Of a DNA stretch of 64,000 bases, positions 28,603 to 61,811 are shown piece by piece. Under the pieces are notes generated by a model. The model was given only the letters and a program-made list of their open reading frames with translations. It was not told where the DNA came from and searched no databases. How positions within the stretch are numbered: position 1 is the stretch's first letter; each line of letters begins with the position of its first letter. The position numbers and the translations under genes were made by a program. This DNA is from Clostridia bacterium (GTDB taxonomy: Bacteria > Bacillota > Clostridia > Monoglobales > Monoglobaceae), in contig JAGARO010000008.1 in NCBI GenBank assembly GCA_017622215.1, positions 1 through 64,000 of the forward strand. The letters are read 5' to 3'.

Positions 28603-28659
28603 AATAATTTCCTCCTTTCAAAAGTTAAATCTAAAAGATTTGTAAAAACCGAACAGGAA

Positions 28660-29130
28660 TTACCATCTGAAGTGTGCAAAAGCCTTGTTAGCTTCAGCCA
28701 TCTTATGAGTGTCTTCCTTCTTCTTGTAAGCTCCGCCTGCATTGTTTGTAGCATCGATAAGCTCGTTAGCAAGTCTTTCTGCCATTGTTCTTTCGCTTCT
28801 CTGTCTTGAATATAATGTAATCCATCTGAGACCGAGAGTTTCTCTTCTGTCAGCTCTAACTTCGATTGGAACCTGATAGTTAGCACCACCTACACGGCGA
28901 GCCTTAACTTCGAGAACAGGCATAACATTATTCATTGCGTCTTCGAATACTTCAACAGGATCCTTTCCTGTCTTTTCTTTGATGATTTCAAATGCATCAT
29001 AAACGATTGCCTGAGCAACACCCTTCTTACCGTCAAGCATAATGTTGTTGATAAGACGGGAAACAGTCTTGCTGTTGTAAAGTGGATCAGGTAAAACGTC
29101 ACGACGTGCAACATGTCCTTTTCTTGGCAC
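28660..29130 (-). CDS. rpsG: 30S ribosomal protein S7
   Basis: 156 residues from a GTG start at 29130 ([10 protein letters not shown], read as Met). This gives the standard S7 length and N-terminus, and GGAGG stands 8 bases upstream. A longer reading to 29232 is open but would run through a series of hairpins and has no family counterpart. S7 nucleates assembly of the 30S head. Visible: [32 protein letters not shown] and [20 protein letters not shown]. Confidence 0.96.
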
Positions 29131-29148
29131 TTTTCTTCCCTCCATTCT

Positions 29149-29234
29149 TGGGGTAACGACCCCATGGTACTCAATATCCCTTTGGGATACTGTCGTGCTG
29201 TATACTATTACACATCGGTGGGAATGTAACATTC
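29149..29234 (-). promoter_or_regulatory. Structured rpsL-rpsG spacer (three stem-loops)
   Basis: The 160-base spacer upstream of rpsG contains three perfect short hairpins in a row: GAATG/CATTC (29222-29234), TATCCC/GGGATA (29175-29189) and TGGGG/CCCCA (29149-29164). The last lies just before the ribosome-binding site. None has a T run, so they are not terminators. In E. coli, S7 binds the rpsL-rpsG spacer to repress translation. A similar autoregulatory leader here is inference. Confidence 0.5.
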
Positions 29235-29290
29235 ACTTTGATATATATTAAATAGCAATACGCACTATTTGTTTACTTAATTTTTGCAAA

Positions 29291-29710
29291 TTACTTTGCG
29301 TCCTTCGGCTTCTTTGCACCGTACTTAGATCTTGACTGGTTACGCTTTGTAACACCTGCAGTATCAAGAGTACCGCGGATGATGTGGTAACGTACACCAG
29401 GAAGGTCCTTAACTCTACCGCCACGAATCATAACAACGCTATGTTCCTGAAGGTTGTGTCCTTCGCCAGGAATGTAGGCTGAAACTTCGATGCCGTTAGT
29501 AAGTCTTACTCTGGCAACCTTTCTGAGGGCTGAGTTAGGCTTTTTAGGTGTCATTGTTCTAACAGAAGTACAAACGCCTCTCTTCTGTGGAGAATTCTGG
29601 TCTGTAGCTTTCTTCTGAATAGCATTGAAACCCTTTAAGAGTGCAGGAGCAGTAGATTTCTTTTCTGCTGTAGCTCTGCCGTTCTTTACCAACTGGTTAA
29701 ATGTAGGCAA
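29291..29710 (-). CDS. rpsL: 30S ribosomal protein S12
   Basis: 139 residues from a TTG start at 29710 (reads [12 protein letters not shown]), matching the family N-terminus. AGGAGG lies 8 bases before it. An in-frame GTG nine bases upstream overlaps that site and is less likely. S12 is part of the decoding centre. Visible: [17 protein letters not shown] and [13 protein letters not shown], with the lysines known from streptomycin work present in their usual form. Confidence 0.96.
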
Positions 29711-29741
29711 TATTTTCACCTCCTATATATAATATGTATAT

Positions 29742-29760
29742 AAAAACGCAATCTGCGTCT
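29742..29760 (-). terminator. Short terminator-like hairpin between the L7Ae-like gene and rpsL
   Basis: On the minus strand, ACGCA-GAT-TGCGT is followed by TTTTATA, and the stem can extend by two weaker pairs. It is small and may only attenuate read-through from the L7Ae-like gene to rpsL. Confidence 0.45.
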
Positions 29761-30000
29761 TTACCTGAGTAAAACAGCAACCGCCGTAGGAACTTCCACG
29801 TGACAGGCCTTTCCAAGCTCTTTCATATTGTTAACATAGACAATTTCTATGTTATGCTCCTTGCAGAGCGTTTCGAAAGGAAAGGCAACGTGATACTCGG
29901 CGTCCCTTGCTACAAAAGCGAGAGTGGCCTTGTCTTCCTCAATAGCCCTGACGGACTGCTTAAGGCCTACAACGTGCTTCTCTGTCTTTAATCTTTCCAT
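29761..30000 (-). CDS. L7Ae-family ribosomal protein (YbxF-like, kink-turn binding)
   Basis: 79 residues. It resembles the small L7Ae/L30e proteins (B. subtilis YbxF/RplGB), which bind kink-turn RNA and are usually encoded between rpoC and rpsL. Visible: HVVGLKQSVRAIEEDKA, LAFVARDAEYHV and VPTAVAVL. AGGTGAT precedes the ATG. Here it is the first gene of the str operon: rpoB and rpoC are not upstream, and a promoter lies at 30041-30069. Confidence 0.88.
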   Translation of the reverse strand: MERLKTEKHVVGLKQSVRAIEEDKATLAFVARDAEYHVAFPFETLCKEHNIEIVYVNNMKELGKACHVEVPTAVAVLLR

Positions 30001-30040
30001 CTATATCACCTAATATGACTTCTAAATTATAAGCCTAATT

Positions 30041-30069
30041 ATACTATCACAGTTTACAAAAATTGTCAA
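30041..30069 (-). promoter_or_regulatory. Promoter of the str operon
   Basis: On the minus strand, a perfect -35 TTGACA (30064-30069) and a -10 TAGTAT (30041-30046) are 17 bases apart, about 40 bases upstream of the L7Ae-like start. Confidence 0.65.
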
Positions 30070-30376
30070 GCCTTTTATTGGAAAATTTCCAAATATAATG
30101 GGCTTTCACAAGATTTTGTGTAGGCGTCTGAAAAACAGAACTATATAGGGACTATATATAATAGGAAGAAAAAAACGGAGAAAAATTGACTTAAAGAAAT
30201 GTGAACATTGTGTGAACGCCCTAAATAAAAGGGTTTTCAGGTAAAAAATTATAAAAAACTATGCAAAATAACCAAAAGATTTTTAATAATTTTGTATAAT
30301 TAGCATCTTTTCTTTTTCTTCGATATGTGTTATCATATTATGGAACTTATATGTAGTAAATTAGGAGGTAACTATA
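30070..30376. other. Gene-free spacer between the str operon and the ABC ATPase gene
   Basis: About 300 bases, AT-rich, with no convincing reading frame or RNA gene. It must hold the plus-strand promoter of the ATPase gene. A TATAAT at 30295-30300 and a TATTAT at 30336-30341 are candidate -10 elements, but neither has a good -35 at 17 bases. AGGAGG (from about 30364) precedes the ATG. Confidence 0.5.
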
Positions 30377-31489
30377 ATGGCAGAATTAAGTTTAAGAAAT
30401 ATTTGCAAAACTTACGACAGTGGTTTTGAAGCTATAAAGGACTTAAATATTGAAATTCCTGATAAAGAATTCCTTATTCTTGTTGGTCCGTCAGGTTGCG
30501 GTAAGTCAACAACTCTCCGTATGATTGCAGGTCTTGAAGAAATTACAGACGGTGAACTCTACATCGGCGGAAAGCTTATGAATGACGTTCTCCCTAAGGA
30601 TAGAGATATTGCCATGGTTTTCCAGAACTATGCTCTTTATCCACATATGACAATTTACGATAACATGGCATTCGGTCTTAAGCTGAGAAAGGTTCCTAAG
30701 GCTGAAATCGACCAGAAGGTACATGAAGCTGCTAAGATTCTTGATATCGAGCATCTCCTCGACAGAAAGCCAAAGGCTCTCTCCGGTGGTCAGAGACAGC
30801 GTGTTGCCCTCGGTCGTGCTATCGTAAGAAATCCAAAGGTATTCTTAATGGATGAACCTTTATCTAACCTTGATGCGAAGCTCAGAGTTCAGATGAGAAC
30901 TGAAATCACAAAGCTCCACCATAGACTTAACACCACATTTATCTATGTAACTCATGACCAGACAGAAGCTCTTACAATGGGTACAAGAATTGTTGTTATG
31001 AAGGATGGTATCGCACAGCAGATTGATACTCCAACAGGTCTTTACTTCACACCACAGAATATGTTCGTTGCAGGCTTCATCGGTTCACCACAGATGAACT
31101 TCATCGACGTTAAGGTTGAAAAGAAGGAAGATGGAATTTACCTTGTAAATGATGCGTTTGCTATCAAGCTTCCTGAAGCTAAGGCACAGAAGGCTATTAT
31201 CCAGGAATACATCGGCAAGGATGTTGTTATGGGTGTCAGACCTGAAGATATTTATGATGATGACCATAACCTTGAAAAGTTTGCAGATACACAGGTTGAA
31301 GCTTATGTAGAGGTTGTTGAAATGATGGGTGCTGAAAGTTACGTTTACGCAAAGTTCGGTAACAATAACATCACAGCAAGAGTTAGACCTGACACAAAGA
31401 CAACACATGATACAACAATTAAGATGGCTATCGACGGTGCAAGAATTCACCTCTTCGATAAGACAACTGAAGAAACAATCATGAACTAA
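30377..31489 (+). CDS. ABC-transporter ATPase of the MsmX/UgpC (sugar importer) type
   Basis: 370 residues, the normal size for the CUT1 sugar-importer ATPases, which couple ATP hydrolysis to oligosaccharide uptake at the inner face of the membrane. Visible: Walker A GPSGCGKST (residues 37-45), Q-loop VFQNYALYPHM, signature LSGGQRQRVALG, Walker B VFLMDEPLSNLD, the switch histidine in THDQTEA, and a C-terminal TOBE-like regulatory domain (about 235-370). No permease or binding-protein gene is near. In Firmicutes one such orphan ATPase (MsmX) often serves many importers, so that is the likely role, by inference. Terminators follow directly. Confidence 0.9.
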   Translation: MAELSLRNICKTYDSGFEAIKDLNIEIPDKEFLILVGPSGCGKSTTLRMIAGLEEITDGELYIGGKLMNDVLPKDRDIAMVFQNYALYPHMTIYDNMAFGLKLRKVPKAEIDQKVHEAAKILDIEHLLDRKPKALSGGQRQRVALGRAIVRNPKVFLMDEPLSNLDAKLRVQMRTEITKLHHRLNTTFIYVTHDQTEALTMGTRIVVMKDGIAQQIDTPTGLYFTPQNMFVAGFIGSPQMNFIDVKVEKKEDGIYLVNDAFAIKLPEAKAQKAIIQEYIGKDVVMGVRPEDIYDDDHNLEKFADTQVEAYVEVVEMMGAESYVYAKFGNNNITARVRPDTKTTHDTTIKMAIDGARIHLFDKTTEETIMN

Positions 31490-31494
31490 TCAAT

Positions 31495-31526
31495 AAAGCC
31501 TTACAGTACAATGTGCTGTAAGGCTT
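31495..31526 (+). terminator. Terminator of the ABC ATPase gene
   Basis: The 12-base stem AAAGCCTTACAG/CTGTAAGGCTTT with a 9-base loop is followed by TTATAAT, six bases after the stop codon. Confidence 0.88.
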
Positions 31527-31575
31527 TTATAATACTTAAATCTAAATTGACTTCTCCCAAGAGAAAGAAGCCCTC

Positions 31576-31600
31576 GGAGTCCAAACGGACTCCTTTTTTT
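31576..31600 (+). terminator. Second terminator-like hairpin downstream of the ATPase gene
   Basis: The perfect stem GGAGTCC/GGACTCC with an AAAC loop is followed by seven T. It stands about 50 bases beyond the first terminator, with no gene between them. Confidence 0.8.
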
Positions 31601-31654
31601 AGTATATGTGTGGGTCCAAGCCTGTGAGATGAGTTGGTTTTTTCGGACAAAAAG

Positions 31655-31681
31655 AAAGCCGTAGCTTTTGCTACGGCTTTT
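31655..31681. terminator. Terminator of lysC (third hairpin in the spacer)
   Basis: The 11-base stem AAAGCCGTAGC/GCTACGGCTTT with a TTTT loop has A and T flanks on both sides. It lies 26 bases beyond the lysC stop and can work in both directions. Confidence 0.88.
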
Positions 31682-31706
31682 ATTCTTCCTTGTGTACGAC
31701 TGGCTC

Positions 31707-32912
31707 CTAATCAAAGAATGCGCGGTGAACAACCTGCACAGCCTTGTCAGCGTAGTCCTTGTTAATAAGAACTGAAACCTTGATTTCTGATGTAGAAATC
31801 ATATGGATGTTAATTCCTGCGTCATAGAGAGCCTGGAACATTTTAGCTGCAACCCCAGGGTTGTTAACCATACCTGAACCAACAATAGAAATCTTGCAGA
31901 TATCTTCTCTGTGGAGGAGTTCCTTGAAGCGGAGAACGTCCTTTTCGCCCTCTAAAATAGCGAGAGCCTTTTCAAGATGTCCCTTTGTAACAGTGAATGA
32001 AATATCCTTTTCATCATTTCTGCCGATTGACTGGAGAATGATGTCAACATTTATACCTTCCTGTGCAAGCTTTGAGAATACCTTGTATGCGATGCCTGGC
32101 TGGTCAGGAAGACCAACAACTGAAATACGGGCAACATCGTTATCTCTTGCCACACCTCTGATTAACATTTTTTCCATAGCAATTGCCTCCTTAACTAATG
32201 TTCCGTCAACCTTATTAAAGCTTGACTTAACTTCGAGTTTAACATTATATTTCTTTGCAATTTCAACCGAACGGTTGTGAAGTACGTTTGCACCAAGACT
32301 TGCAAGCTCAAGCATTTCATCAAATGTGATTTCGTCAAGCTTTTTAGCTTCTGGAACAATACGTGGGTCTGTTGTGTAAACGCCGTCAACGTCAGTGTAA
32401 ATTTCACACTTTTCAGCACCAATCTGTGCCGCAATAGCAACAGCTGAAGTATCACTTCCGCCTCTGCCGAGAGTTGTGATGTCGTCGTATTTGTCAAGAC
32501 CCTGGAAACCTGCAACAATAATAACTTTTCTTCTTGCAAGCTCTTCTTTCATTCTTGTAGTATCAATTTTTTCGATTCTTGCGCTTCCGCAGTTGGAGTC
32601 AGTCCTAAAGCCTGCCTGCCAGCCTGTAAGAGAAATAACAGGAACGCCAAGTGTTTCGATAGCCATAGCTAAAAGTGAAATTGAAATCTGTTCACCTGTC
32701 GCCAAAAGCATATCCATTTCTCTTTTTGATGGATTTGGGTTGATTTCAGCAGCCTTTTCAAGAAGATCGTCAGTTGTATCTCCCTGAGCAGAAACAACAA
32801 CAATTACGTCATAGCCGTTTTTGTATGTTTCCACAACTCTGTTTGCAACGTTAAAGACTTTGTCTTTGTCAGCAACAGAGCTGCCGCCGAATTTCTGTAC
32901 GATAATTGCCAC
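31707..32912 (-). CDS. lysC: Aspartate kinase
   Basis: 401 residues with a GTG start; AGGAGG lies 7 bases before it. It phosphorylates aspartate, the first step to threonine, methionine and lysine. Visible: the kinase start VQKFGGSSV (residues 5-13), VVVSAQGDTTDDLL, LGRGGSDTSAVAIAA, YTDVDGVYTTDPRI, and two C-terminal ACT regulatory domains (ISVVGLPDQPGIAYKVF and ISIVGSGMVNNPGVAAKMF), so feedback control by an amino acid is expected. No riboswitch precedes it. It is the third gene of hom-thrB-lysC, 11 bases after thrB, which suggests threonine as the main product. Confidence 0.96.
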   Translation of the reverse strand: MAIIVQKFGGSSVADKDKVFNVANRVVETYKNGYDVIVVVSAQGDTTDDLLEKAAEINPNPSKREMDMLLATGEQISISLLAMAIETLGVPVISLTGWQAGFRTDSNCGSARIEKIDTTRMKEELARRKVIIVAGFQGLDKYDDITTLGRGGSDTSAVAIAAQIGAEKCEIYTDVDGVYTTDPRIVPEAKKLDEITFDEMLELASLGANVLHNRSVEIAKKYNVKLEVKSSFNKVDGTLVKEAIAMEKMLIRGVARDNDVARISVVGLPDQPGIAYKVFSKLAQEGINVDIILQSIGRNDEKDISFTVTKGHLEKALAILEGEKDVLRFKELLHREDICKISIVGSGMVNNPGVAAKMFQALYDAGINIHMISTSEIKVSVLINKDYADKAVQVVHRAFFD

Positions 32913-37336: not shown

Positions 37337-37365
37337 TTGCAAAGGATAATTCTTTATGTTAAAAT
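37337..37365 (+). promoter_or_regulatory. Promoter of the GH13 gene
   Basis: A -35 TTGCAA (37337-37342) and a -10 TAAAAT (37360-37365) are 17 bases apart, 28 bases before the start codon. Confidence 0.6.
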
Positions 37366-37393
37366 AAAGGAAAATAACAGTAGGGTGATAAAG

Positions 37394-39301
37394 ATGTACA
37401 TATACCATAATTCTCAAAATGAAATATACAGAAAACCTTTTGGTGCAGTGGAGACAGGAACGGAAATTGAACTTGCTCTTGAGGTTAGAGATACAGAGGC
37501 TCACCAGGTTTTAGTCCGCACCTGGTCCGGAAACAGGGAAAACTATATTCCTATGGAGAAGAAGGACAACCTCTGGTGTGCCAGAGTTAAGACTCCTGAT
37601 GAGAAGGGGTTGTTCTGGTATTATTTTGTAATCCGTACAAACCAGGGCGAATTTTATTATTTTAACAATGACGAAAAGCTGGGAGGAGAGGGTGTTTTAA
37701 AGAAAGAGAACACTATGAACTCCTATCAGGTAACAGTTTTTGATAAGAATTACCACACTCCAAAATGGTTTCGCGACAGCGTGATGTACCAGATTTTCCC
37801 TGACAGATTTTTCCACGGGAAAGACACGGACTACCCTGTAAAAAGGGAGGAATACACAATCCATAGGGATTGGTACGAAAGATTTGCCAGCAACCGCCAC
37901 CCATACGAAAACGGTCCTGCCTGTAACGATTTTTACGGGGGAAACCTTAAGGGGATTGAGGAAAAACTGCCTTATCTTAAGGAGCTTGGAATATCAGTTA
38001 TCTACTTAAATCCGATTTTCGAAGCGTACTCAAACCACAGATACGATACAGGAAATTATAAAAAGATTGATATGATGCTGGGCACAGAGGCTGACTTTGT
38101 GAGCCTGACAAAAAAGGCAGAGGAAATGGGCATCAATATAATTTTAGACGGTGTATTCAGCCACACAGGCTCCGACAGTATTTACTTCAATAAATACGGA
38201 AACTACGGCGAGGGCGGTGCCTACAGGGATAAAAATTCCCCATACAGAAGCTGGTTCCAGTTCAAAGGGGACACAAATGATTACGACAGCTGGTGGGGTT
38301 GCACAAATCTGCCCAATGTAAATGAAATGAGCGAGGGCTACCTTGACTACATTTTAAGGGATGAAGATGCAGTTATAAAGAAGTGGTTGAGGCTTGGTGC
38401 AAAGGGCTGGAGACTTGATGTAGCCGACGAGCTCCCTGACGAATTTATAAAGATTTTAAGGGAAGAAATAAAGAAGACAGACGAGGATGCAGTTATAATC
38501 GGAGAGGTCTGGGAGGACGCTACAAATAAGGTGAGCTACGGCAATCTCCGTGAGTATTTAACAGGGGACGAACTTGACAGTGTAATGAACTATCCCTTCA
38601 AGGATGCAATGATAGATTTTGTTTTGGGTAACTGTAATGGGACAAACTTTGGAAAGAGAATAATGTCAATATTGGAAAACTATCCAAAGGAGGTTGCCTA
38701 TTCCCTTATGAATATTGCAGGGACCCACGATACGGAAAGAATTAAAACTGTAATGGGACAGCAAAATTACGGAAATGGGACAGACTGGGACACAAAGCTT
38801 TCAGGTGGGGAAGAAAGCCGTGCTTTAAGACGGCAGATGCTCTTTGCCTTTATGCAGATGACCTTTGTCGGAGTACCTTGTGTGTACTATGGAGACGAAA
38901 TCGGCATGGAGGGCGGAAAGGACCCATATAACAGAAAGCCGTATACCTGGAGGAATATAAATCCCGAACTGCTTGATTATTACAAGGAGATTATAGGAAT
39001 TAGAAATGAAAAACCTGCCTTAAGACGAGGAGATTTTAAGGTTGTTTATAGCGACGATAAGGTTTTCGCATACACAAGAGAGCTGAAAGGCGATAAGGAT
39101 GTTTTCGGAGAAAAAACACAGGGAAAGAACTATCTCTGCGTTGTAAATACCGACCAGTGGGACAGGGAAATTGTTATAGAAAATGAATTTTGCGGAAAAA
39201 CGCAATTTAATGAAATTTTCAGGGATAAAAAACACACATTGACAGATAATAAATTAAACATAAAAATTATGTCAGAATCTGCGATGTTGTTTGAATATTG
39301 A
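37394..39301 (+). CDS. GH13 alpha-glucan hydrolase, neopullulanase/cyclomaltodextrinase-like
   Basis: 635 residues from the ATG at 37394 (MYIYHNSQNEIYRKPFG), with AGGGTGAT just upstream. No signal peptide, so it acts in the cytoplasm on imported maltodextrins or cyclodextrins, or on glycogen fragments. The first 110 residues form a beta domain of CBM34 type. The catalytic barrel shows all four GH13 regions: DGVFSHTG, GWRLDVADE (nucleophile Asp near residue 341), IIGEVWED (acid/base Glu near 369) and IAGTHDTERI. The length and N-domain match the GH13_20 group. It precedes the glycogen genes, which have their own promoter. Confidence 0.92.
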   Translation: MYIYHNSQNEIYRKPFGAVETGTEIELALEVRDTEAHQVLVRTWSGNRENYIPMEKKDNLWCARVKTPDEKGLFWYYFVIRTNQGEFYYFNNDEKLGGEGVLKKENTMNSYQVTVFDKNYHTPKWFRDSVMYQIFPDRFFHGKDTDYPVKREEYTIHRDWYERFASNRHPYENGPACNDFYGGNLKGIEEKLPYLKELGISVIYLNPIFEAYSNHRYDTGNYKKIDMMLGTEADFVSLTKKAEEMGINIILDGVFSHTGSDSIYFNKYGNYGEGGAYRDKNSPYRSWFQFKGDTNDYDSWWGCTNLPNVNEMSEGYLDYILRDEDAVIKKWLRLGAKGWRLDVADELPDEFIKILREEIKKTDEDAVIIGEVWEDATNKVSYGNLREYLTGDELDSVMNYPFKDAMIDFVLGNCNGTNFGKRIMSILENYPKEVAYSLMNIAGTHDTERIKTVMGQQNYGNGTDWDTKLSGGEESRALRRQMLFAFMQMTFVGVPCVYYGDEIGMEGGKDPYNRKPYTWRNINPELLDYYKEIIGIRNEKPALRRGDFKVVYSDDKVFAYTRELKGDKDVFGEKTQGKNYLCVVNTDQWDREIVIENEFCGKTQFNEIFRDKKHTLTDNKLNIKIMSESAMLFEY

Positions 39302-47750: not shown

Positions 47751-47759
47751 AAAAATAAA

Positions 47760-47790
47760 CCCCCCTCAACCGAGGGGGATATTTTTTATG
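47760..47790. terminator. Bidirectional terminator between glgP and the glycosidase cluster
   Basis: The stem CCCCCTC/GAGGGGG with an AACC loop is flanked by AAAAAATAAA and ATATTTTTT, and serves the two converging units. Confidence 0.88.
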
Positions 47791-47794
47791 CAAA

Positions 47795-49525
47795 TTATTT
47801 TACGAAGATGATACCTGAAAGAGGAACGTTAATTTCTTCAAGGTTTGAATCAATCTTGCCTGTTTCGAGGACTTCGCCCATACAGTTAACAACTTCAAAA
47901 TCTCTGCCCCTGGCATTTTTGATAATAAGGAAGTTGTTCTTTGTACTGTTGATAACCTTGGCGGTCTTTAAGTCGCCGGTTTCAACAAGAGAGTCGGTGT
48001 ATGCTGTGATAACAGCGTTGCCGTCCTTGACCCCGCATACAACGCTGTAGCCTGTTTCAGGGTTCTTTGCGAAGATATCGCCGTAAGCCAGGATGTCTCT
48101 GTTCTTTCTCCAGAAATCAAGGTAGAAACCAAGCATCTTCTTGTGGTCTTCAGGGAGCGCCTGAATTCTGACAGAAATCTGGGGAACACAGTAGATACAG
48201 TTTGTAATCTGCATAGCTGCATTTTCAACAGGCTCGTTTACATTCCACATAAGCATATCCGAGTGAACAGCTGTGTTTCCTGCCACAAGACGAACATTGA
48301 TTGAGTCAGTCCTGTTGATAAGTGCGTCGTTAGGGCAGTCAGTAACACGGAGCATATTTCCGTACTGTCTTATACAAGGTCCGACGTAGGTTTCACGGAA
48401 CTCAATTAAAATGTCAGGATTGATTTCTGTTAAAGCGTCGCGGATTGCAATCATAAGTGTGTCGATTGCTTCTTCAAGACTCTTTATGTCGCGTCTGTCG
48501 TCAGGCTTTAATGATACATCTGTGTGAGTAAAGGCATCAATGAAGTCAAGCTTTACGCCGTCAATTCCCCATTCCTTAACCTGTGTTACATAGGTTTCAA
48601 CAAGATAGTCACGAACTTCCTTGTAACGTGGGTCAAAGTTAAATGTATGCTCACTTTCGTTTAAGAACATTCCCTTAAAACGCTGATAAACCTTGTTTTC
48701 AACCCCCGGAAGAACAGGGTCCCATTTTCCTACAAAAGGAACAGAGAACCAAACCATAACCTTCATACCAATTTTATGAATTCTGTCAACAAAGTTTGTA
48801 AAATCAGGGAACTTATCTGTGTTAACCTGCCAGTCACCGCACTGATGATAGCCGTCGCCCCACTGCCAGCCGTCGTCGATTAAGATTGTTTCCATACCGA
48901 GAGGTTTTGAAAGTTCACATTCTCTGATTATATCTTCTTCGTCAAGTCCTCTGTGGTAGGAGTACCAGCTTGAGTTCATAGGAAGCTTTGCGTGTTCAGG
49001 AACGAATGCAGGAGTATATCCGCAATCTGTTTCCCACCAGGAAGATACCTCTTTGACTGCCTGCTCATAAGGAATGTCGCGAAGGTCAACACGGATTGTA
49101 GTGTGATATTCCTTAATTGGTGCAACAGAAACTGTGAAGAAGTTGATGTAACAGTCAAGCCAAGCACAGTATTCGTTTACACCTGATGTAAATTCAATAG
49201 GATTTTTCGCGTCAGCAACAGCAACAGTCTGTCTGTTTCTGCCGTCTCTTGAGAAATGACAGTGAATCGGCATCCAGGATGCAATTCTTGAAGTTGTTTT
49301 CTGTGGCTGCCAGTTTGGACCTAAATATCTCCAGGCCTTAATTGTAGGGCTCCAGGTGGAGAGGGTATCAACCACATCAAAACTCCACTTAAGAGAGAAC
49401 TTTTTTGGAATAGCCTCTTCCTCTAAAACCATATCTAAATCAAAGTAAAGAACCCCGTCTTTTTCTGCAGTCTGTTCGACTGTAATTTTCGCATTTTCAG
49501 GTGCTCCGATAATATCAAACTTCAT
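47795..49525 (-). CDS. GH36-like glycosidase, paralogue 1
   Basis: 576 residues, no signal peptide. A beta-sandwich N-terminus (to about 170) precedes a TIM barrel with METILIDDGW (211-220), a putative nucleophile D327 in GVKLDFIDAF, a putative acid/base D396 in RVTDCPND, and a small C-terminal beta domain. The layout is that of clan GH-D (GH36/GH27: alpha-galactosidase and relatives), but the substrate cannot be read from the sequence. It is the last of three tandem paralogues, with an 11-base gap to the middle one; about four in five residues match that copy by eye. Confidence 0.8.
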   Translation of the reverse strand: MKFDIIGAPENAKITVEQTAEKDGVLYFDLDMVLEEEAIPKKFSLKWSFDVVDTLSTWSPTIKAWRYLGPNWQPQKTTSRIASWMPIHCHFSRDGRNRQTVAVADAKNPIEFTSGVNEYCAWLDCYINFFTVSVAPIKEYHTTIRVDLRDIPYEQAVKEVSSWWETDCGYTPAFVPEHAKLPMNSSWYSYHRGLDEEDIIRECELSKPLGMETILIDDGWQWGDGYHQCGDWQVNTDKFPDFTNFVDRIHKIGMKVMVWFSVPFVGKWDPVLPGVENKVYQRFKGMFLNESEHTFNFDPRYKEVRDYLVETYVTQVKEWGIDGVKLDFIDAFTHTDVSLKPDDRRDIKSLEEAIDTLMIAIRDALTEINPDILIEFRETYVGPCIRQYGNMLRVTDCPNDALINRTDSINVRLVAGNTAVHSDMLMWNVNEPVENAAMQITNCIYCVPQISVRIQALPEDHKKMLGFYLDFWRKNRDILAYGDIFAKNPETGYSVVCGVKDGNAVITAYTDSLVETGDLKTAKVINSTKNNFLIIKNARGRDFEVVNCMGEVLETGKIDSNLEEINVPLSGIIFVK

Positions 49526-49536
49526 AATTTTTCTCC

Positions 49537-51273
49537 TTATTTTATAAATATAATTCCCGAAAGAGGAACGTTGATTTTTACAAGATTTGTGTTTAGTTTG
49601 CCTGTTTCCAAAACTTCGCCCATACAGTTAACAACTTCAAAATCTCTGCCCTCTGCATTTTCGATAACAAGGGCATCGTATCTTGTACTGTTAATAATCT
49701 TGGCAGTTTTTAAGTCGCCGACTTCAACAAGGGAATCGGTGTATGCTGTAATAACAGCGTTGCCGTCTTTAACGCCCCAGGCCATGCTGTAGTTTGTTTC
49801 AGGGTTCTTTGCGAAGATGTCGCCGTAAGCCAGGATGTCCCTGTTCTTTCTCCAGAAATCGAGGTAGAAACCAAGCATCTTTTTGTGGTCTTCAGGGAGC
49901 TCCTGAATTTTAACAGAAATCTGGGGAACACAGTAGATACAGTTTGTAATCTGCATAGCTGCAATTTCAACAGCTTCGTTCTTGTTCCACATAAGCATAT
50001 CTGAATGAACAGCGGTGTTACCTGAAACAATTCTTAAATTGATTGAGTCAGCTCTGTTAATGAGGGCATCAATTGCACAGTCGTGAACACGAAGCATGTT
50101 GCCAAACTGTCTTATACAAGGTCCGATGTAGGGTTCGCGGAACTCGATTAAAATATCAGGATTGATTTCTGTTAAAGCATTATGAATATCAATCATAAGA
50201 GTATTTATAGCTTCTTCAAGACTCTTTATGTCGCGCTTGTCGTCAGGCTTTAATGATACATCTGTATGGCGGAAACAGTCAATAAAGTCAAGTTTAACAC
50301 CGTCAAGGCCATAGGTTTTAACTGCGTTTACATAGATTCCGATAAGATAGTCACGAACTTCCTTGTAACGTGGGTCAAAGTGAAGAACCCACTCAACACC
50401 GCTGTCATTTAAGAACATTCCCTTAAAACGCTTATAAACATTGTTTTCAACATCATGATTATCAGCGTCCCATCTTCCTACAAAAGGAACAGAGAACCAA
50501 AGCATAACTTTCATACCGATTTTATGAATTCTGTCAACAAAGTTCTTAAAATCAGGGAATATGTCAGTGTTAACTATCCAGTCGCCAAGTCGGCTATAGT
50601 CGTCGCCTTTCTGCCAGCCGTCGTCGATTAAAATTGTTTCCATACCGAGAGGTTTTGAAAGTTCGCACTCTCTGATTATATCCTCTTCGTCAAGGCCTCT
50701 GTGATATGTGTACCAGCTTGAGTTCATAGGAAGCTTTGCGTGTTCAGGAACGAATGCAGGAGTATATCCGCAATCTGTTTCCCACCATTTTGAAACCTCT
50801 TTAACTGCCTGCTCATAAGGGATATCGCGGAGGTCAACGCGGATTGTTGTGTGATATTCCTTAATAGGTGCAACAGAAACTGTGAAGAAGTTGATATAAC
50901 AGTCAAGGGAAGCTGTGTATTCGTTTACACCTGATGCGAAGCTGATAGGATTTTTCGCGTCAGCAACGGCAATAGTCTGTCTGTTTCTGCCGTCCCTTGA
51001 GAAGTGACAGTGAAGTGGCATTCCTGATGCGATTCTTGAGTGTGTTTTGTGCGTCCCGAAGTTTGGGCGTAAATATCTTAAGGTATCATATGCTGCACTC
51101 CAGGTGCATAGTGTGTCAATTGCGTCAAATGCCCACTTTAATGTTAACTTTTTTGGAATAGCCTCTTCTTCTAAAACCATGTCTAAATCAAAGAAAAGAA
51201 CGCCGTCTTTTTCTGCAGTCTGTTCAACTGTAACCTTTGCATTTTCAGGTGCTCCGATAATATCAAATTTCAT
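49537..51273 (-). CDS. GH36-like glycosidase, paralogue 2
   Basis: 578 residues, with the same architecture and nearly the same scaffold as paralogue 1. Putative catalytic residues are kept: D329 in GVKLDFIDCF and D398 in RVHDCAID. The changes cluster in loops near the active site (QKGDDYSRLGDWI after the DDGW motif; CFRHTDVS; HDCAID for TDCPND), and TLRYLRPNFGTHKTHSR replaces the AWRYLGPNWQPQKTTSR segment. AAGGAG precedes the ATG, with an 11-base gap from paralogue 3. Confidence 0.8.
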   Translation of the reverse strand: MKFDIIGAPENAKVTVEQTAEKDGVLFFDLDMVLEEEAIPKKLTLKWAFDAIDTLCTWSAAYDTLRYLRPNFGTHKTHSRIASGMPLHCHFSRDGRNRQTIAVADAKNPISFASGVNEYTASLDCYINFFTVSVAPIKEYHTTIRVDLRDIPYEQAVKEVSKWWETDCGYTPAFVPEHAKLPMNSSWYTYHRGLDEEDIIRECELSKPLGMETILIDDGWQKGDDYSRLGDWIVNTDIFPDFKNFVDRIHKIGMKVMLWFSVPFVGRWDADNHDVENNVYKRFKGMFLNDSGVEWVLHFDPRYKEVRDYLIGIYVNAVKTYGLDGVKLDFIDCFRHTDVSLKPDDKRDIKSLEEAINTLMIDIHNALTEINPDILIEFREPYIGPCIRQFGNMLRVHDCAIDALINRADSINLRIVSGNTAVHSDMLMWNKNEAVEIAAMQITNCIYCVPQISVKIQELPEDHKKMLGFYLDFWRKNRDILAYGDIFAKNPETNYSMAWGVKDGNAVITAYTDSLVEVGDLKTAKIINSTRYDALVIENAEGRDFEVVNCMGEVLETGKLNTNLVKINVPLSGIIFIK

Positions 51274-51284
51274 AATATTTCTCC

Positions 51285-53027
51285 TTATTTTATAAATATA
51301 ATTCCCGAAAGAGGAACATTGATTTTTATAACATTGTTTTCAATTCTGCCTGTTTTCAGAACTTCGCCCATACAGTTCACAACCTCAAAATCCTTGCCCT
51401 CTGCATTTTCAACGATAAGGGCGTCAAGGCGTGTACTGTTTATGATTTTTGCAGTTTTCATATCCTCGATGTCAACAGCTGTGTCGGCGTAAAGTGCAAA
51501 AACAGCTTCTTTATCCTTAACGGCATAGGCCATACTGTAACCGAATTCAGGATTCTTTGCGAAGATATCGCCATAGGCTAAAATATCCCTGTTTTTTCTC
51601 CAGAAGTCGAGGTAGAAACCAAGCATCTTTTTGTGGTCTTCAGGAAGCTCCTGAATTCTCATTGAAATCTGTGGAACGGAGAAAATACAGTTTGTAATCT
51701 GCATAGCAGCGTTCTCAACAGGCTCATTCACATTCCACATAAGCATATCGGAGTGGATTGCTGTATCTCCTGAAATAAGGCGGAGGTTGATTGTGTCCCC
51801 TCTGTTGATAAGAGCGTCGTTAGGGCAGTCAATAACACGGAGCATATTGCCGTACTGTCTTATACAAGGTCCTACATAGGTTTCGCGGAACTCGATAAGT
51901 ATATCAGGCTTGACTTTTATAAGGGCATCGTGTACAGCCAGCATAAGAGTGTCGATTGCTTCTTCGAGGCTCTTGATGTCGCGTCTGTCATCAGGCTTTA
52001 AGGATATGTCTGTAAGGTTGAACCAGTCAATAAAGTCAAGCTTTAAGCCGTCAATTCCCCATTCCTGAACTCTGCTCACGTAAATATCCACAAGGTAGTC
52101 GCGGACCTCCTTGTAGCGAGGGTCAAAGTGGAAGGTGTCACCGAAGCCGTCTGTACCTCCGTTAAGAACCATATCTTTAAAACGGGTGTAAACGGGGTTT
52201 TCCCTGCCTTCCTCAAGGGCACTCCATTTTCCGAGAAACGGAACAGAGAACCATACCATAACCTTCATGCCGATTTCGTGAACTTTATCTACAAAAAGCT
52301 TAAAAGCAGGGAACTTGTCGGCGTTCACCATCCAGTCTCCCACCATGTGGTGGCCTTCCCCTCTCTGCCAGCCGTCGTCGATTAAGATTGTTTCCATACC
52401 AAGAGGCTTTGAAAGGGCACATTCTCTTAAAAGGTCGTCTTCTGCCAAATCTCTGTGATAGCTGTACCAGGTAGAGTTCATAGGATATTTTGCATATTCA
52501 GGAACGAAAGCAGGTGTATAACCGCAGTCTGTTTCCCACCATTTTGTTACATCCCTGATTGCCTGCTCATAAGGAATGTGGCGTAGGTCAATACGGATTG
52601 TTGTGTGGTATTCCTTGATAGGCGCAACAGGATTTGTAAAAAATTCTATTGCACAGTAAAGCTCGGCTGTATTATCGTTTGCACCAGATAAAAGACTGAT
52701 AGGAGTTTTCGCGTCAGCAACAGCAACAGTTTGTCTGTTTCTGCCGTCCCTTGAAAAATGACAGTGGATTGGCATCCATGATGCAGTTCTCGATGTTGTT
52801 CTCTGCGCTTTCCAGTGAGGAGCCAGATATCTCCATGCCTTGATTGTAGGGCTCCAGGTTGAAAGGGTGTCAATAATCGGAAAGTTCCAGCAAACAGTAA
52901 ACTGCTGTGGCACAGCCTCTTCCTCTAAAATCATATCAACATCAAAAAAAAGAACGCCGTCCTTTTCTGCTTTTTTCTCAATAGAAATTTTTGCATTCGG
53001 CGAACCGCCGTAGGTTACAAAATTCAT
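51285..53027 (-). CDS. GH36-like glycosidase, paralogue 3
   Basis: 580 residues from the ATG at 53027 (MNFVTYGGSPNAK), with TTGGAGG upstream; an in-frame start 33 bases earlier overlaps that site. It is the first gene of the three and the most diverged. The DDGW motif, the nucleophile region GLKLDFIDWF and the acid/base region RVIDCPND are all present. It shares the AWRYLAPHW segment with paralogue 1 but not with paralogue 2. No export signal, so it probably acts on imported oligosaccharides. Promoter at 53059-53086. Confidence 0.8.
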   Translation of the reverse strand: MNFVTYGGSPNAKISIEKKAEKDGVLFFDVDMILEEEAVPQQFTVCWNFPIIDTLSTWSPTIKAWRYLAPHWKAQRTTSRTASWMPIHCHFSRDGRNRQTVAVADAKTPISLLSGANDNTAELYCAIEFFTNPVAPIKEYHTTIRIDLRHIPYEQAIRDVTKWWETDCGYTPAFVPEYAKYPMNSTWYSYHRDLAEDDLLRECALSKPLGMETILIDDGWQRGEGHHMVGDWMVNADKFPAFKLFVDKVHEIGMKVMVWFSVPFLGKWSALEEGRENPVYTRFKDMVLNGGTDGFGDTFHFDPRYKEVRDYLVDIYVSRVQEWGIDGLKLDFIDWFNLTDISLKPDDRRDIKSLEEAIDTLMLAVHDALIKVKPDILIEFRETYVGPCIRQYGNMLRVIDCPNDALINRGDTINLRLISGDTAIHSDMLMWNVNEPVENAAMQITNCIFSVPQISMRIQELPEDHKKMLGFYLDFWRKNRDILAYGDIFAKNPEFGYSMAYAVKDKEAVFALYADTAVDIEDMKTAKIINSTRLDALIVENAEGKDFEVVNCMGEVLKTGRIENNVIKINVPLSGIIFIK

Positions 53028-53058: not shown

Positions 53059-53086
53059 ATTATAACAAACAGGGAAAAAATTACAA
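53059..53086 (-). promoter_or_regulatory. Promoter of the three GH36-like genes
   Basis: On the minus strand, a -35 TTGTAA (53081-53086; 4 of 6) and a perfect -10 TATAAT (53059-53064) are 16 bases apart. Confidence 0.6.
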
Positions 53087-57717: not shown

Positions 57718-58344
57718 ATGAAAAAAAAGGTATCGGAATCTGTAATAAACCGTTTGCCGAGATATTACAGATATCTTGATGAACTGTTAAAAACAGGTGT
57801 TGACAGAATATCCTCAAAGTCCTTAAGTGAGAAAATGGGACTTACAGCCTCCCAGGTCAGACAGGATTTTAACTGTTTCGGGGGCTTTGGACAGCAGGGC
57901 TACGGCTATAAGGTGGAAAGCCTTAAGGAAAGCATCGGGAAGATTTTAGGGGTCGATAAACAGCATTCCGCAATTTTAATCGGTGCAGGTAATATAGGAA
58001 GAGCCTTTGCTCTTAATATTACTTTTGAAAAAAGGGGCTTTCACCTTGTTGGAATTTTTGATAATGACCCTGAAAAAATCGGACAGACTGTGGGAGATAT
58101 AGTTGTAACTGATTTTGAGGAAGTAGAAAGGTTTATAGAAGAAAACAAGCCTGAAATGGCAATCGTTGCAATCCCGAAAGCAGGGGTAAATCAGGTTGTG
58201 TCCCGCCTTAAAAATGCGGGTATAAAAGCTTTCTTAAACTTTACCCACGCCGAAGTTGAGGATGCAGAGGATATTGTTGTTGAAAATATCCACTTAGGCG
58301 ACAGCTTAATGAGATTATCATACAAAATGGGAGAAAAAATATGA
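57718..58344 (+). CDS. rex: Redox-sensing transcriptional repressor Rex
   Basis: 208 residues, the family length. Rex senses NADH/NAD+ and represses fermentation and respiration genes when NADH is low. Visible: an N-terminal winged helix (INRLPRYYRYLDEL; SEKMGLTASQVRQDFNCFGGFG, helix-turn-helix about residues 35-60), the Rossmann NAD(H) site ILIGAGNIGRAFA (about residues 82-94), and VGIFDNDPEKIG. It follows the aconitase after 13 bases and overlaps the next gene by four bases (ATGA). I found no convincing Rex operator in the window. Confidence 0.95.
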   Translation: MKKKVSESVINRLPRYYRYLDELLKTGVDRISSKSLSEKMGLTASQVRQDFNCFGGFGQQGYGYKVESLKESIGKILGVDKQHSAILIGAGNIGRAFALNITFEKRGFHLVGIFDNDPEKIGQTVGDIVVTDFEEVERFIEENKPEMAIVAIPKAGVNQVVSRLKNAGIKAFLNFTHAEVEDAEDIVVENIHLGDSLMRLSYKMGEKI

Positions 58345-59852
58345 GTATTTTAAGAGTTCCTTACGGAAAGAAAATAATAGACGGAACAAAAAAGGGCTAT
58401 GAAAATGCCGTAGAAATTAAAATTGAGAAAAATGTAAAGGCTTTTGAAGCCTTTGGAAACACAGCTAAAGCAAGTCTTATGTGGGACGAAGAAGGACTTT
58501 ACATTTTTGCTGAATGTAAAAAGGAAAATGTTTCAGTTGACGGAGAACAGCCATGGGACAATGACTCCTTTGAAATCTTTGTGAACGAGGATAATTCCAA
58601 GTCAGCCCAGACAAAAGACGGAGACGGTCAGTACAGAGTTGGTGCTGACGGAGAAATTTCTATAGGTCTTAAGGCAAAGACAGAAAATATCACAGCAATT
58701 GCAAAGATGACAGAAGATGGCTACACAGTTGATGCCTATATTAAGTTTGAAACTAAGAAAGAAATCGGCCACGTAATGGGCTTTGATATTTTGGTAAACG
58801 ACAGAAGGGACGGTGCAAGACGCTCAGTTTCTGCCTGGATTGATAACTCCGTAAACGGCTGGCTTACAACCGAAAACTACGGAACAATTATGCTCTCGGG
58901 GGATATGTCCTTAATGCAGGAAAAGTTGAGAGTTTTCTCAAACAAAGAGATTATAGACCTTGCAACAGGCTATGTAAGAGCTTATGAAAAGCACGGCTTC
59001 CCTGTTTTTGAAAGAGTTACTCCAAGACAGGTTGAAGTGTTAAACGGCTACAACGGAACATGGCAGAGAACATCAGGTGTCTCCCTTAACTTCCACACAA
59101 ACTCAAAGTTTGTTGCAATGGAGCTTTTTAATGACTACGAAAGCGGAGATACATCCTTTGATTTTTATGTTGACGGAGTTATGGCGAAGAGTGTAAACGC
59201 TGTAACACTTGATGAGGTTACATTCTTTAAGCTTAACCTTGACGGTGAAATGCACAATGTGCAGATTTACTACTCCAACCAGTCTAGAGGCTTTTTAAGA
59301 AATCTTGCCATTGAAAAGGATGCAGTTTTTGAAAAGCACCAGTATAAAAAGAAGATTTTATTCCTTGGGGACTCTATAACAGAGGGTGCAGGCGCTACAA
59401 CTTCTTCAATGTGCTATGCAAATATTGTTGCAAGAGAAATGGATTATGAAGTTTTAAACCAGGCAATTTCAGGCTACGGCCACGACGCAGATTATATTGA
59501 AATGCCTGAGGTGGCCCCTGATGTAGTTCTTCTTGCCATGGGCATAAACGACCAGGGCAATGCGAATTTTGAAGAAAAGTTAAGAGCTTACCACGAAAAG
59601 CTTGATAAACTTTTCGGAGATAAGGAAATTTATATTATCACACCAAGATGGACATCAGTTCACACAGATGAACAGGTGCTTACTGCAAAGGCTAAAATTA
59701 TAAAGAGTGCATCAAGATTTGACTATATGCAGATTATTGAGGGGGACAAAACTCTTCCGCATGATGTAAAATATTTTGCAGACGGTGTCCACCCAAATAA
59801 CTTCGGTTATCATATTGAAGCCGTAAGAGTTATAAGTACAATGAAGAAATAA
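58341..59852 (+). CDS. Cytoplasmic CBM9-like + SGNH/GDSL hydrolase protein
   Basis: 503 residues, no signal peptide. About residues 1-195 are a CBM9/DOMON-like sugar-binding domain (VPYGKKIIDGT, PWDNDSFEIFVNED, DGQYRVGADGE). A middle beta domain (about 215-335) resembles the N-domain of CE2-type esterases. The C-terminus is an SGNH hydrolase: catalytic Ser in LGDSITEG (about residue 344), MGIND (about 400), and the Asp/His pair in DGVHPN (about 480). Such enzymes commonly remove acetyl groups from sugars; that role is inference. The ATGA overlap couples it to rex. Confidence 0.8.
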   Translation: MSILRVPYGKKIIDGTKKGYENAVEIKIEKNVKAFEAFGNTAKASLMWDEEGLYIFAECKKENVSVDGEQPWDNDSFEIFVNEDNSKSAQTKDGDGQYRVGADGEISIGLKAKTENITAIAKMTEDGYTVDAYIKFETKKEIGHVMGFDILVNDRRDGARRSVSAWIDNSVNGWLTTENYGTIMLSGDMSLMQEKLRVFSNKEIIDLATGYVRAYEKHGFPVFERVTPRQVEVLNGYNGTWQRTSGVSLNFHTNSKFVAMELFNDYESGDTSFDFYVDGVMAKSVNAVTLDEVTFFKLNLDGEMHNVQIYYSNQSRGFLRNLAIEKDAVFEKHQYKKKILFLGDSITEGAGATTSSMCYANIVAREMDYEVLNQAISGYGHDADYIEMPEVAPDVVLLAMGINDQGNANFEEKLRAYHEKLDKLFGDKEIYIITPRWTSVHTDEQVLTAKAKIIKSASRFDYMQIIEGDKTLPHDVKYFADGVHPNNFGYHIEAVRVISTMKK

Positions 59853-59861
59853 GGTGTTCTT

Positions 59862-61811
59862 ATGAAAAAGATTTTGACTGTTTTTCTGACTTTGGGGATA
59901 CTTTTGTCCATTGCTGTAACAGTAAACGCAGCTCCCGAAACTATTGCAGTTCCCTACGGAGAGGCAAAGATTGACGGAGTAATGGACGAGGCGTATACCT
60001 TAGGCAAAACAATAAATGTTAAGAAGTTCAGCAGTATTTTCACAGGTACAGGAAGCTACGGAGAATTCTATGCTCTCTGGAACGAAAAGGGAATTTATAT
60101 TTTCGCCGAAGTAGTTGAAAAGACAAAGGAAACTGACGGTGTAAACCCTTGGGATGACGATAATATTGAGTATTATATTGACGAGGATAACCCGAGAAAT
60201 ACTGCAGTTGACCAAAACGACGGACAGTACAGAATAGGTCTTGACGGAGAAATGTCCTTTGGGCTCAGTGCCTCCGCTGAATTTATGCAGGGCAAGGTAA
60301 AGCAGACTAAGACAGGCTATAACGCTGAAGTGTTTATTGCCTTTAAGGAAGAACATAAAGCGGGAGATATAATCGGACTTGACTTTATTATAAGCGACAG
60401 ACGCGATGGCGAAAGACGAAGCGCAGCCTGCTTTAAAGATGCAACAGGCAACGGCTGGCTCACCACTGCTAATTATGGAACAGCTGTTCTTTGTAAGGAA
60501 GAGGGAGAGGAAATCTGCCTTTCTGACAGGCGTGTTTATGAGGTTAAGGATGGACTTCTTCCTTTAAGACCAGTTGCCGAAGACCTTGGCGCAGAGGTAA
60601 GCTACGAGGAAAAAACTGATACAGCCAAAGTGAGCCTGGGGACAGATGTGATTTATGTGTCCCAAAAGGAAATAAAGATTGGGGACAAAACCTTTGAAGG
60701 CGGAGTACAAAAGGACGGAAGATTTTATGTTCCGAAAGAAATTTTTGTAGAAAGCGGAATTGCGGTTATTGAGAAGAAGGATGAATTGAACGCAAGCTTT
60801 ATTTCCCTTTCAGAAAAGCATAAGCCTTTTAAGACAGATGCAAAAATTCCTGCCGACGGAGAGAAGATTAAGGATGAAAAGTTAAAGACAGCTTTCCACG
60901 GAGAGGTTGAATTTATAGTAGAGGAAGGATATCTTGTCCCAAGAAGATTCAACAAGGCACAGGTAAAAAGCTTTGAGGAAATGGGCTTTGTTTACCAGCC
61001 ACGCCGTGCAACAGGCATAAAGCTTATTTTTGAAACTGACAGTAAATATTTCGCCTTTGACTATAACGCAGGTTATGTAACGGGAAATTCCTGTGAGGTT
61101 TATGTTGACGGAGCGAAGTCGGGAGGACTTAACTTTGAAACTGATTTTATAAGCGGAGTTTATTATCACGCTTTGGACGGTGGAAAGCATAAGGTTGAAA
61201 TTTACTTCCCTAACTCACAGATGGGAATTAAGAATTTCACAGTTGAAAAGGGAAAGGCTTTTGAAACTGTCCCTGAAAAAGAGGAAATTTTGTTCCTCGG
61301 CGACTCTATAACAGAGGGTATCGGTATTGCAAACATTTCAAAAACCTATCCGCAGATTGTTGCAGAGGCTCTTGATATGACTCTCTATAACCAGGGCGTC
61401 GCAAGCTATACTCACGACGAAAGAACAATCGATGAAATCGGGGGAGCTGACCCTGAAATAGTTTTCGTTGCTATGGGTGTAAATGAGGTTTTCCAGGCTG
61501 ATATGGAAGAAAACCTTAAGGGAAAGGTTGAAAAGTATTACGAAAAGCTTTTGAAAACTTTCCCTGACTCAAAGATTTATGTAATGACACCTCTCACAGC
61601 CTTTGACAGAGACTATAAAAAGGTACAGATTGTAAGGGATATAATAAAGGAAGTTGTGTCAAAGTACGAGGGGATTACTGTGATAAACGGAGAGGAGATT
61701 CTGTCTCCGCAGATGTGCTTTGAGGACGGAACACTCCTTTCGGATTATGTTCATCCATCAGACAAAGGCGCAAAGGTTATAGCAGAAAAATTAATTGAAA
61801 TAATGAAATAA
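59862..61811 (+). CDS. Secreted CBM9-like + SGNH/GDSL hydrolase protein
   Basis: 649 residues, starting with a clear signal peptide (MKKILTVFLTLGILLSIAV, cleavage probably after VNA). It then has the same CBM9-like domain as its upstream neighbour (VPYGEAKIDGV, PWDDDNIEYYIDED, DGQYRIGLDGE). Next comes an extra domain of about 90 residues of copper-amine-oxidase-N/stalk type (GLLPLRPVAEDLGAEV, GRFYVPKEIF), then a CE2-N-like beta domain and an SGNH domain (LGDSITEG near residue 480; MGVNE in place of GxND; DYVHPSDKG). It starts 10 bases after the previous gene and ends at a terminator. Confidence 0.8.
   Translation: MKKILTVFLTLGILLSIAVTVNAAPETIAVPYGEAKIDGVMDEAYTLGKTINVKKFSSIFTGTGSYGEFYALWNEKGIYIFAEVVEKTKETDGVNPWDDDNIEYYIDEDNPRNTAVDQNDGQYRIGLDGEMSFGLSASAEFMQGKVKQTKTGYNAEVFIAFKEEHKAGDIIGLDFIISDRRDGERRSAACFKDATGNGWLTTANYGTAVLCKEEGEEICLSDRRVYEVKDGLLPLRPVAEDLGAEVSYEEKTDTAKVSLGTDVIYVSQKEIKIGDKTFEGGVQKDGRFYVPKEIFVESGIAVIEKKDELNASFISLSEKHKPFKTDAKIPADGEKIKDEKLKTAFHGEVEFIVEEGYLVPRRFNKAQVKSFEEMGFVYQPRRATGIKLIFETDSKYFAFDYNAGYVTGNSCEVYVDGAKSGGLNFETDFISGVYYHALDGGKHKVEIYFPNSQMGIKNFTVEKGKAFETVPEKEEILFLGDSITEGIGIANISKTYPQIVAEALDMTLYNQGVASYTHDERTIDEIGGADPEIVFVAMGVNEVFQADMEENLKGKVEKYYEKLLKTFPDSKIYVMTPLTAFDRDYKKVQIVRDIIKEVVSKYEGITVINGEEILSPQMCFEDGTLLSDYVHPSDKGAKVIAEKLIEIMK

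Follow-up and report, generated by a model that had tools for sequence, protein, structure and literature searches.

The 64,000-nucleotide stretch analyzed here (the window; positions 1 to 64,000 of contig JAGARO010000008.1, Clostridia bacterium assembly GCA_017622215.1) carries three tandem minus-strand genes whose products are, judged from profiles and structure models, divergent glycoside hydrolase family 36 (GH36)-like enzymes. One of the three, copy 2, carries an excess of change at the active-site loops that is real and is not matched in the relatives compared. At a probability of roughly 55%, we read the array as a probable operon for three cytoplasmic, retaining GH36-like exo-α-glycosidases, likely α-galactosidases in the broad sense, that would differ in the leaving groups they accept; the shared catalytic core and the differences around the mouth of the active site, greatest in copy 2, suggest that the three copies may trim related but different sugars. 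The enzyme chemistry is ordinary, and the pattern of active-site change is unusual. The copies are referred to as c1, c2 and c3, and their counterparts in a second species of the genus as d1, d2 and d3:

47795-49525, minus strand: copy 1 (c1), GH36-like enzyme of 576 amino acids with type-1 loops (QWGDGYHQC, KWDPVLPGVENKVYQR), recognized as an open reading frame (ORF), by Pfam and by model
49537-51273, minus strand: copy 2 (c2), 578 amino acids, the copy that deviates most in its active-site loops and its N-domain stretch
51285-53027, minus strand: copy 3 (c3), 580 amino acids, first gene of the probable operon

All three are intact ORFs, with products of 576, 578 and 580 amino acids that are 70-83% identical (c1-c2 82.6%, c1-c3 73.6%, c2-c3 69.9%). 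The Pfam Melibiase profile scores 41.3, 48.6 and 41.6 bits against them (cut-off 27), and the GH31 barrel profile PF01055 is also over its cut-off of 23.5, at 34.1, 26.2 and 29.2 bits; NCBIfam gave no match near any cut-off for the array proteins. GH31 was rejected as the best family: it is outscored by Melibiase in all three copies, and in a Foldseek search with the c1 model rows 1-23 are α-galactosidases or FpGalactosaminidase and the first GH31 row is the 24th. By profile, the nearest solved sequences are GH36-type α-galactosidases. AlphaFold models of c1 (predicted local distance difference test, pLDDT, 88.4; predicted template modelling score, pTM, 0.89) and c2 (pLDDT 88.8, pTM 0.88) have the secondary structure of a β-sandwich N-domain, a triosephosphate isomerase (TIM) barrel and a C-terminal β domain, a fold that by itself says nothing on function. 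In the fold search, the c1 model matches solved GH36 α-galactosidases over its whole length at 11-16% identity, with VIA Z values of 28.4 for SpAga and 24.8-25.3 for TmGalA and a root-mean-square deviation of 3.1-3.3 over 453-456 residues. The GH36-like assignment thus has the backing of Pfam, of profile and fold comparisons and of distant relatives that carry an annotation, with the GH31 barrel likewise above its cut-off.

To locate the sugar pocket, an alignment of the 40-member family was aligned with TmGalA by hhalign (96% probability). The 40 rows leave out L041 (same locus as L082) and the incomplete members G016, G077:C73, G118 and G295. In the TmGalA literature, the contact residues are given as W65, W190, Y191, D220, D221, W257, K325, D327, R383 and D387 (PMC6089974, PMC5132143). 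The first eight of these map to c1 W58, W187, Y188, D217, D218, W259, K325 and D327; the part of the alignment after β6 leaves motifs unaligned, and R393 and D396 were placed by eye. In c1 numbering, W187, Y188, D217, W259, K325, D327, R393 and D396 are invariant in 40/40 members, while D218 (39/40) and W58 (38/40) are nearly so. The KxD nucleophile motif after β5 is K325-L-D327 in every member and aligns with the KxD of the solved enzymes. After β7, D396 is present in 40/40 members and in five distant plasmid relatives, an equivalence made by eye in a register that differs from that of TmGalA. According to PMC9912918 (section 17), the acid/base motif of TmGalA and an Arabidopsis enzyme is RxxxD; all 40 members have RxxD followed by Cys, and on sequence we would not file the array enzymes under the TmGalA/plant alkaline type subgroup of GH36. 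One distant relative has Asn in place of that Cys and keeps the Asp, which favours D396 as the acid/base. The scaffold and putative catalytic Asp residues are kept, and the catalytic residues are intact in all copies. The positions concerned are:

48545-48547, minus strand: c1 D327, nucleophile by homology (KLDF; 40/40 members)
48326-48346, minus strand: c1 loop after β7, residues 394-400 (VTDCPND), with D396 the likely acid/base (40/40)
50068-50088, minus strand: c2 loop after β7 (VHDCAID)
51816-51836, minus strand: c3 loop after β7 (VIDCPND)

Around this conserved pocket, two loops have changed length in the whole array. The W220-G230 interval after β2 is 9 residues long in 6/6 array genes, and outside the array is 12 residues (30 members) or 13 (4 members). 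The G266-F283 interval after β3 is 16 residues in 6/6 array genes versus 8 in 34/34 others. Both changes together are thus found in all six array genes of the two species and in 0/34 of the other members compared. For the Arabidopsis enzyme, PMC9912918 (sections 18, 20, 23 and 24) describes a +1 subsite formed in part by a Trp and a Lys of the N-domain, and an additional loop, 329-352, that contributes to sugar binding at the +2 and +3 subsites. By analogy, we infer that the array changed on its leaving-group side. The loops lie as follows:

48803-48877, minus strand: c1 loop after β2, residues 217-241 (DDGW...GDW...), 3-4 amino acids shorter than in the 34 non-array members
50551-50625, minus strand: c2 loop after β2
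52305-52379, minus strand: c3 loop after β2
48695-48748, minus strand: c1 loop after β3, residues 260-277, with an array-only insertion of 8 amino acids
50443-50496, minus strand: c2 loop after β3, array-only insertion
52197-52250, minus strand: c3 loop after β3, array-only insertion

The copies also differ from one another, and the features named in the original prediction (the TDCPND, HDCAID and IDCPND variants, the divergent stretches after DDGW and KLDFID, and an N-domain stretch common to copies 1 and 3 only) are all present in the alignment. We defined active-site loops as the β-α loops at the C-terminal face of the barrel, assigned by DSSP in the c1 model, giving 107 loop positions against 205 other barrel positions. 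Outside the array, the ratio of loop to rest-of-barrel change is 0.22-0.96 for 12 sister pairs, and its maximum over 559 pairs is 1.07 (561 are possible; two with fewer than 10 rest-of-barrel differences were left out). Within the window it is 1.71 for c1-c2, 1.38 for c2-c3 and 1.00 for c1-c3, and in the second species 1.41 for d1-d2, 1.32 for d2-d3 and 1.06 for d1-d3. Fisher tests against the pooled sisters, which treat columns as independent and were applied to mutually dependent array pairs, gave p values of 0.0005 (c1-c2), 0.0007 (c2-c3), 0.08 (c1-c3), 0.003 (d1-d2), 0.002 (d2-d3) and 0.04 (d1-d3). Without positions 268-277, which hold the array's own insertion, the ratios are 1.51, 1.27 and 0.82 in the window and 1.24, 1.19 and 0.91 in the second species (same order of pairs), and the outside maximum is still 1.07.

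In the N-domain, residues 55-81 differ between c1 and c2 at 13/27 positions versus 15/143 in the rest of the domain, a ratio of 4.59 against a maximum of 1.47 for outside pairs; this stretch was picked after viewing the alignment, so that its p values flatter it. It reads TIKAWRYL...W in c1 and c3 and AAYDTLRYL...F in c2, and copy 2 loses P60, W65 and W72, together with W84 just beyond the stretch. Among the 34 other members P60 is present in 85% and W72 in 88%; the Trp at 65 is not a conserved residue, and position 84 is most often Gly (53%).

49283-49363, minus strand: c1 N-domain stretch 55-81, holding W58 (the equivalent of TmGalA W65), c3-like and altered in c2
51031-51111, minus strand: c2 N-domain stretch 55-81, with P60A, W65L and W72F relative to c1 and c3 (W84G just outside)
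52785-52865, minus strand: c3 N-domain stretch 55-81, c1-like

The copy types are kept between the species: of the 107 loop positions, c2/d2 differ at 6 and c3/d3 at 2, compared with 23-36 for paralogues, and c1/d1 keep 96/107 loop residues despite a synonymous divergence (dS) of 0.67, with C-domains that differ at 33/94 positions. An independent tandem pair in another lineage (L097, in genome G065) has conserved loops, with a ratio of 0.68, so that tandem duplication alone does not produce the array pattern. The two genes of that pair (L097, 6885-10261, contig 43 of G065) lie about 22 nucleotides apart, the second truncated where the contig stops, and differ mostly in the C-domain (47/93 positions) and not in the loops.

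The array is found at the same place, with all ORFs open, in the second species (G001, contig 59, apparently the same contig as record JAGAIJ010000086.1 of a water deer cecum assembly). The six array genes of the two species form one clade with a long stem (support 100/100), which supports the proposed duplication. The dS values are 0.12 for c2/d2 and 0.14 for c3/d3, close to gyrA (0.16) and the phosphorylase gene (0.145), and 0.67 for c1/d1. Maximum chi-square analysis (7 tests, 2000 permutations) gave p = 0.0005 in 5/7 tests, 0.02 for c3 and 0.085 for d3, with breakpoints at codon 436 of c1 (both versus d1/c2 and versus d1/d2), 502 of d1, 43 of c2 and 540 of d2. In trees of the 3' segments, c1 groups with c2/d2 over codons 437-540 (92/94) and with d2 over codons 541-580 (99/95); the tree of codons 201-435 does not separate c1, d1 and c2 (45/27). 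Run-length tests for conversion gave p<0.05 (uncorrected) in 14/15 pairs when all polymorphic sites were used, a version that mixes in uneven constraint, and in 2/15 pairs with silent sites only (c2-d2 0.04, d1-c3 0.02). Recombination between copies is therefore supported at the sequence level; of the gene conversion originally proposed, the partner switches along the genes bear it out, while the silent-site run tests are weak. Codon comparisons show purifying selection on the array genes: the ratio of nonsynonymous to synonymous rates (dN/dS) is 0.15-0.19 between copies within a genome and 0.11-0.15 between species counterparts. It is 0.148 for c2/d2 and 0.111-0.114 for c3/d3, against 0.010 for gyrA and 0.025 for the glycogen phosphorylase gene. 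For c1-c2 it is 0.26 in the active-site segments, 0.16 elsewhere and 0.52 in the N-stretch. Positive selection was not found by this measure; dN/dS is <1 throughout.

Among 28 ORF pairs compared with the second species, dS ranges from 0.008 to 1.08, with c1 second to a GH13 gene, and segment replacement thus seems common here. Over 22312-64000, dS varies more than 100-fold from ORF to ORF against G001 contig 59, as if blocks had recently been exchanged. The part from 25167 to 32912 is nearly identical to that contig. The most diverged pair is the GH13 α-amylase-type gene beside the glycogen genes (37337-39301, plus strand; 83% amino acid identity, dS 1.08), and 26 of the 27 remaining pairs are at least 93% identical.

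The genes converge with an α-glucan phosphorylase gene and diverge from gyrA, so that they look like a single operon, c3-c2-c1, and are probably one minus-strand unit. The start of c3 was placed at the ATG at 53027, which follows GGAGG; the longest frame opens at 53060. The elements around the genes are:

49526-49536, minus strand: c2-c1 spacer of 11 nucleotides, with a GGAG motif before the ATG
51274-51284, minus strand: c3-c2 spacer of 11 nucleotides, with a GGAG motif before the ATG
47759-47780, minus strand (with a plus-strand match as well): intrinsic-terminator-like hairpin 3' of c1, from a terminator scan
53059-53086, minus strand: weak promoter-like site upstream of c3 (TTGTAA-16-TATAAT, TG before the -10)

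The glycogen phosphorylase gene converges on the hairpin, which has the most pairs of all terminator-like sites (8 found versus 4.8 +/- 2.3 expected). Promoter-like matches in the region number 17 versus 12.8 +/- 3.8 by chance, near the chance level.

Several observations weigh against a diversification of substrates. No segment class has dN/dS >1, and the bootstrap interval for the c1-c2 ratio of active-site to other dN/dS, 0.90-2.91, includes 1. The proportion of synonymous differences (pS) between c1 and c2 is 0.47 in the loops versus 0.36 in the rest of the barrel, so that some of the pattern may stem from the edges of converted tracts. The claim that the copies change mainly at active-site loops stands for comparisons with copy 2 and falls for c1-c3, whose differences are even over the barrel (23/107 loop and 44/205 other positions, no excess). 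The changes in c2/d2, at 6/107 loop versus 4/205 other positions, would fit relaxation as well. In addition, the acid/base register is not that of TmGalA, the operon is without a transporter gene, and neither class I nor class II GalT was found in the host genome (93.6% complete). The predicted shift in substrate choice is supported only as an inference: the changed loops and N-stretch lie where GH36 enzymes bind the leaving group, and both species retain the same copy types, while the dN/dS values, the bootstrap interval and the c1-c3 comparison do not speak for it.

A gene-conversion mosaic without functional divergence, in which the non-loop blocks were homogenized and the loops are the unconverted remainder, is an unlikely but serious alternative. 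It draws on the partner switches and segment trees that link c1 to c2/d2 and d2, and on a c1-c2 pS that is higher in the loops and N-stretch than elsewhere; the breakpoints, however, are closer to the ends of the genes, the loops are spread over the whole barrel, both array-only length changes occur in all copies, and the loops typical of each copy recur in the two species. We consider it somewhat less probable still that the array serves dosage or redundancy, with three copies raising the enzyme level and copy 2 loops drifting under relaxed constraint. The dN/dS of c2/d2 and c3/d3, below 1 yet above that of the flanking gyrA and glycogen phosphorylase genes, and the loop changes of c2/d2 would fit such relaxation, but every copy has intact catalytic residues, the c3/d3 loops are nearly frozen (2/107), and copies 1 and 2 are still 26% and 30% different from copy 3.

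That the enzymes act on glycogen or maltodextrins, as the adjoining glg operon might suggest, is very improbable. GlgB, GlgC, GlgD, GlgA and the α-glucan phosphorylase are encoded alongside, in convergent orientation, and the GH31 barrel profile is also above its cut-off; against this, the glg genes are on the opposite strand with the terminator-like hairpin between, the galactose pocket retains its DD pair, and the DNA fetched at 7 loci of relatives outside the genus showed no homologue of the window's glg genes. Given the strand, the hairpin and these 7 relatives, a link to glycogen metabolism is not supported. An assembly chimaera of strain variants is hardly credible: the genome is a draft in 14 contigs and the dS of c1/d1 stands out from adjacent genes (0.12-0.16), but the same array is found open and in place in JAGAIJ010000086.1, and c1 keeps its own loops in both genomes.

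We return to the favoured reading of three enzymes that would differ in leaving-group acceptance. The sequences show a single clade, as expected if tandem duplication preceded the species split; they also show exchange of segments between copies and purifying selection, and in copy 2 the active-site loops and the N-domain stretch have changed more than the remaining barrel. By homology, the -1 site (W187, Y188, D217, D218, W259, K325, D327 and R393/D396) would take the same sugar in all three enzymes, which would cleave it by double displacement with D327 as the nucleophile. Differences in leaving-group acceptance are predicted from the position of the changed segments, which match the sites of TmGalA W65 and of Arabidopsis K75/W78 and the extra loop, where those enzymes contact the sugars of the leaving group (PMC9912918 for K75 and W78). 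With such a set, a single cell would be able to use several imported α-galactosides; copies 1 and 3 may overlap, and copy 2 would be the likely specialist. More tentatively, the array may be a specificity-diversification system in which the β2 loop was shortened and the β3 loop doubled to accept a new glycoside, three copies with lasting distinct active-site types then followed, and recombination went on refreshing the scaffold around them. Outside the array, loops change no faster, or hardly faster, than the barrel (at most 1.07 in 559 comparisons); copy 2 shows the opposite order, and two loops of almost constant length in the other 34 members differ in length in the array. The array is thus a compact natural experiment on the change of leaving-group specificity in GH36-type pockets.

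The host genome, a 1.18 Mb draft in 14 contigs, nevertheless keeps three copies; a search with c1 found there only these and one distant relative (25% identity, partial length). With a threshold of E <= 1e-40 and the host genome counted each time, the clade is sparse, occurring in 24/391 genomes of the class, 7/38 of the family and 2/398 of a phylum-wide draw. Relatives on plasmids of Paenibacillus, Photobacterium, Streptomyces and Persicobacter share 30-36% identity over 86-98% of the length, and the annotated ones are named 'glycoside hydrolase family 36 protein' or 'alpha-galactosidase'. Viral contigs gave 37 pattern matches, with no relative among them. In a Pfam scan at 1e-8 of 30 of 66 listed neighbour entries in other genomes (one listed twice), 8/30 match glycosidase families (GH2, GH3, GH31, GH35, trehalase), 6/30 match nothing, and the remainder belong to esterase, lyase-like, transport, regulatory and other families. 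A conserved operon partner was rejected, as none recurs among the close relatives (at most eight proteins scanned, L035-L038). The neighbouring glycosidases and some transporters fit glycan use, with no sugar named. A simple hydropathy scan, which is not a signal-peptide predictor, found no strongly hydrophobic N-terminus in the array proteins, in agreement with the earlier call that signal peptides are lacking, and the substrates are thus presumably imported. Galactokinase-type (GalK) and GalE genes were found in the host genome. Elsewhere in the window, 58341-61811 (plus strand) holds two adjoining CBM9-GDSL esterase genes of 503 and 649 amino acids; the product of the second also has a copper-amine-oxidase N-terminal-like domain.

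Among the papers listed in literature searches, none has a title or abstract that deals with an array of this kind. TmGalA, the GH36 α-galactosidase of Thermotoga maritima (PDB 1zy9/5m0x), resembles the array proteins in length and in the order N-domain, TIM barrel, C-domain. It is 11-13% identical to the c1 model in structural alignment and has RxxxD as its acid/base motif where the array has RxxD-C; the β2 and β3 loops of the array differ in length from those in the rest of its own clade. The Arabidopsis enzyme (PMC9912918) shares the KxD nucleophile motif and an N-domain Trp beside the active site; its extra loop at the +2/+3 subsites may, by our analogy, correspond to the array loop after β3, and its acid/base is described as the second Asp of RASDD, where the array, compared with this plant enzyme by its published description, has Cys. 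The bacterial AgaA/SpAga-type GH36 enzymes (PDB 4fnr, 2xn0, 6phw) are among the best profile and fold matches, at 12-16% identity, with structure chains of 718-729 residues and a profile match covering approximately the first half of the barrel. The annotated relatives on plasmids of Paenibacillus, Persicobacter and Streptomyces adjoin sugar ATP-binding cassette (ABC) transporters or other glycosidases, are present as a single copy at the locus read, and have β2 and β3 loops of normal length in the five that were aligned.

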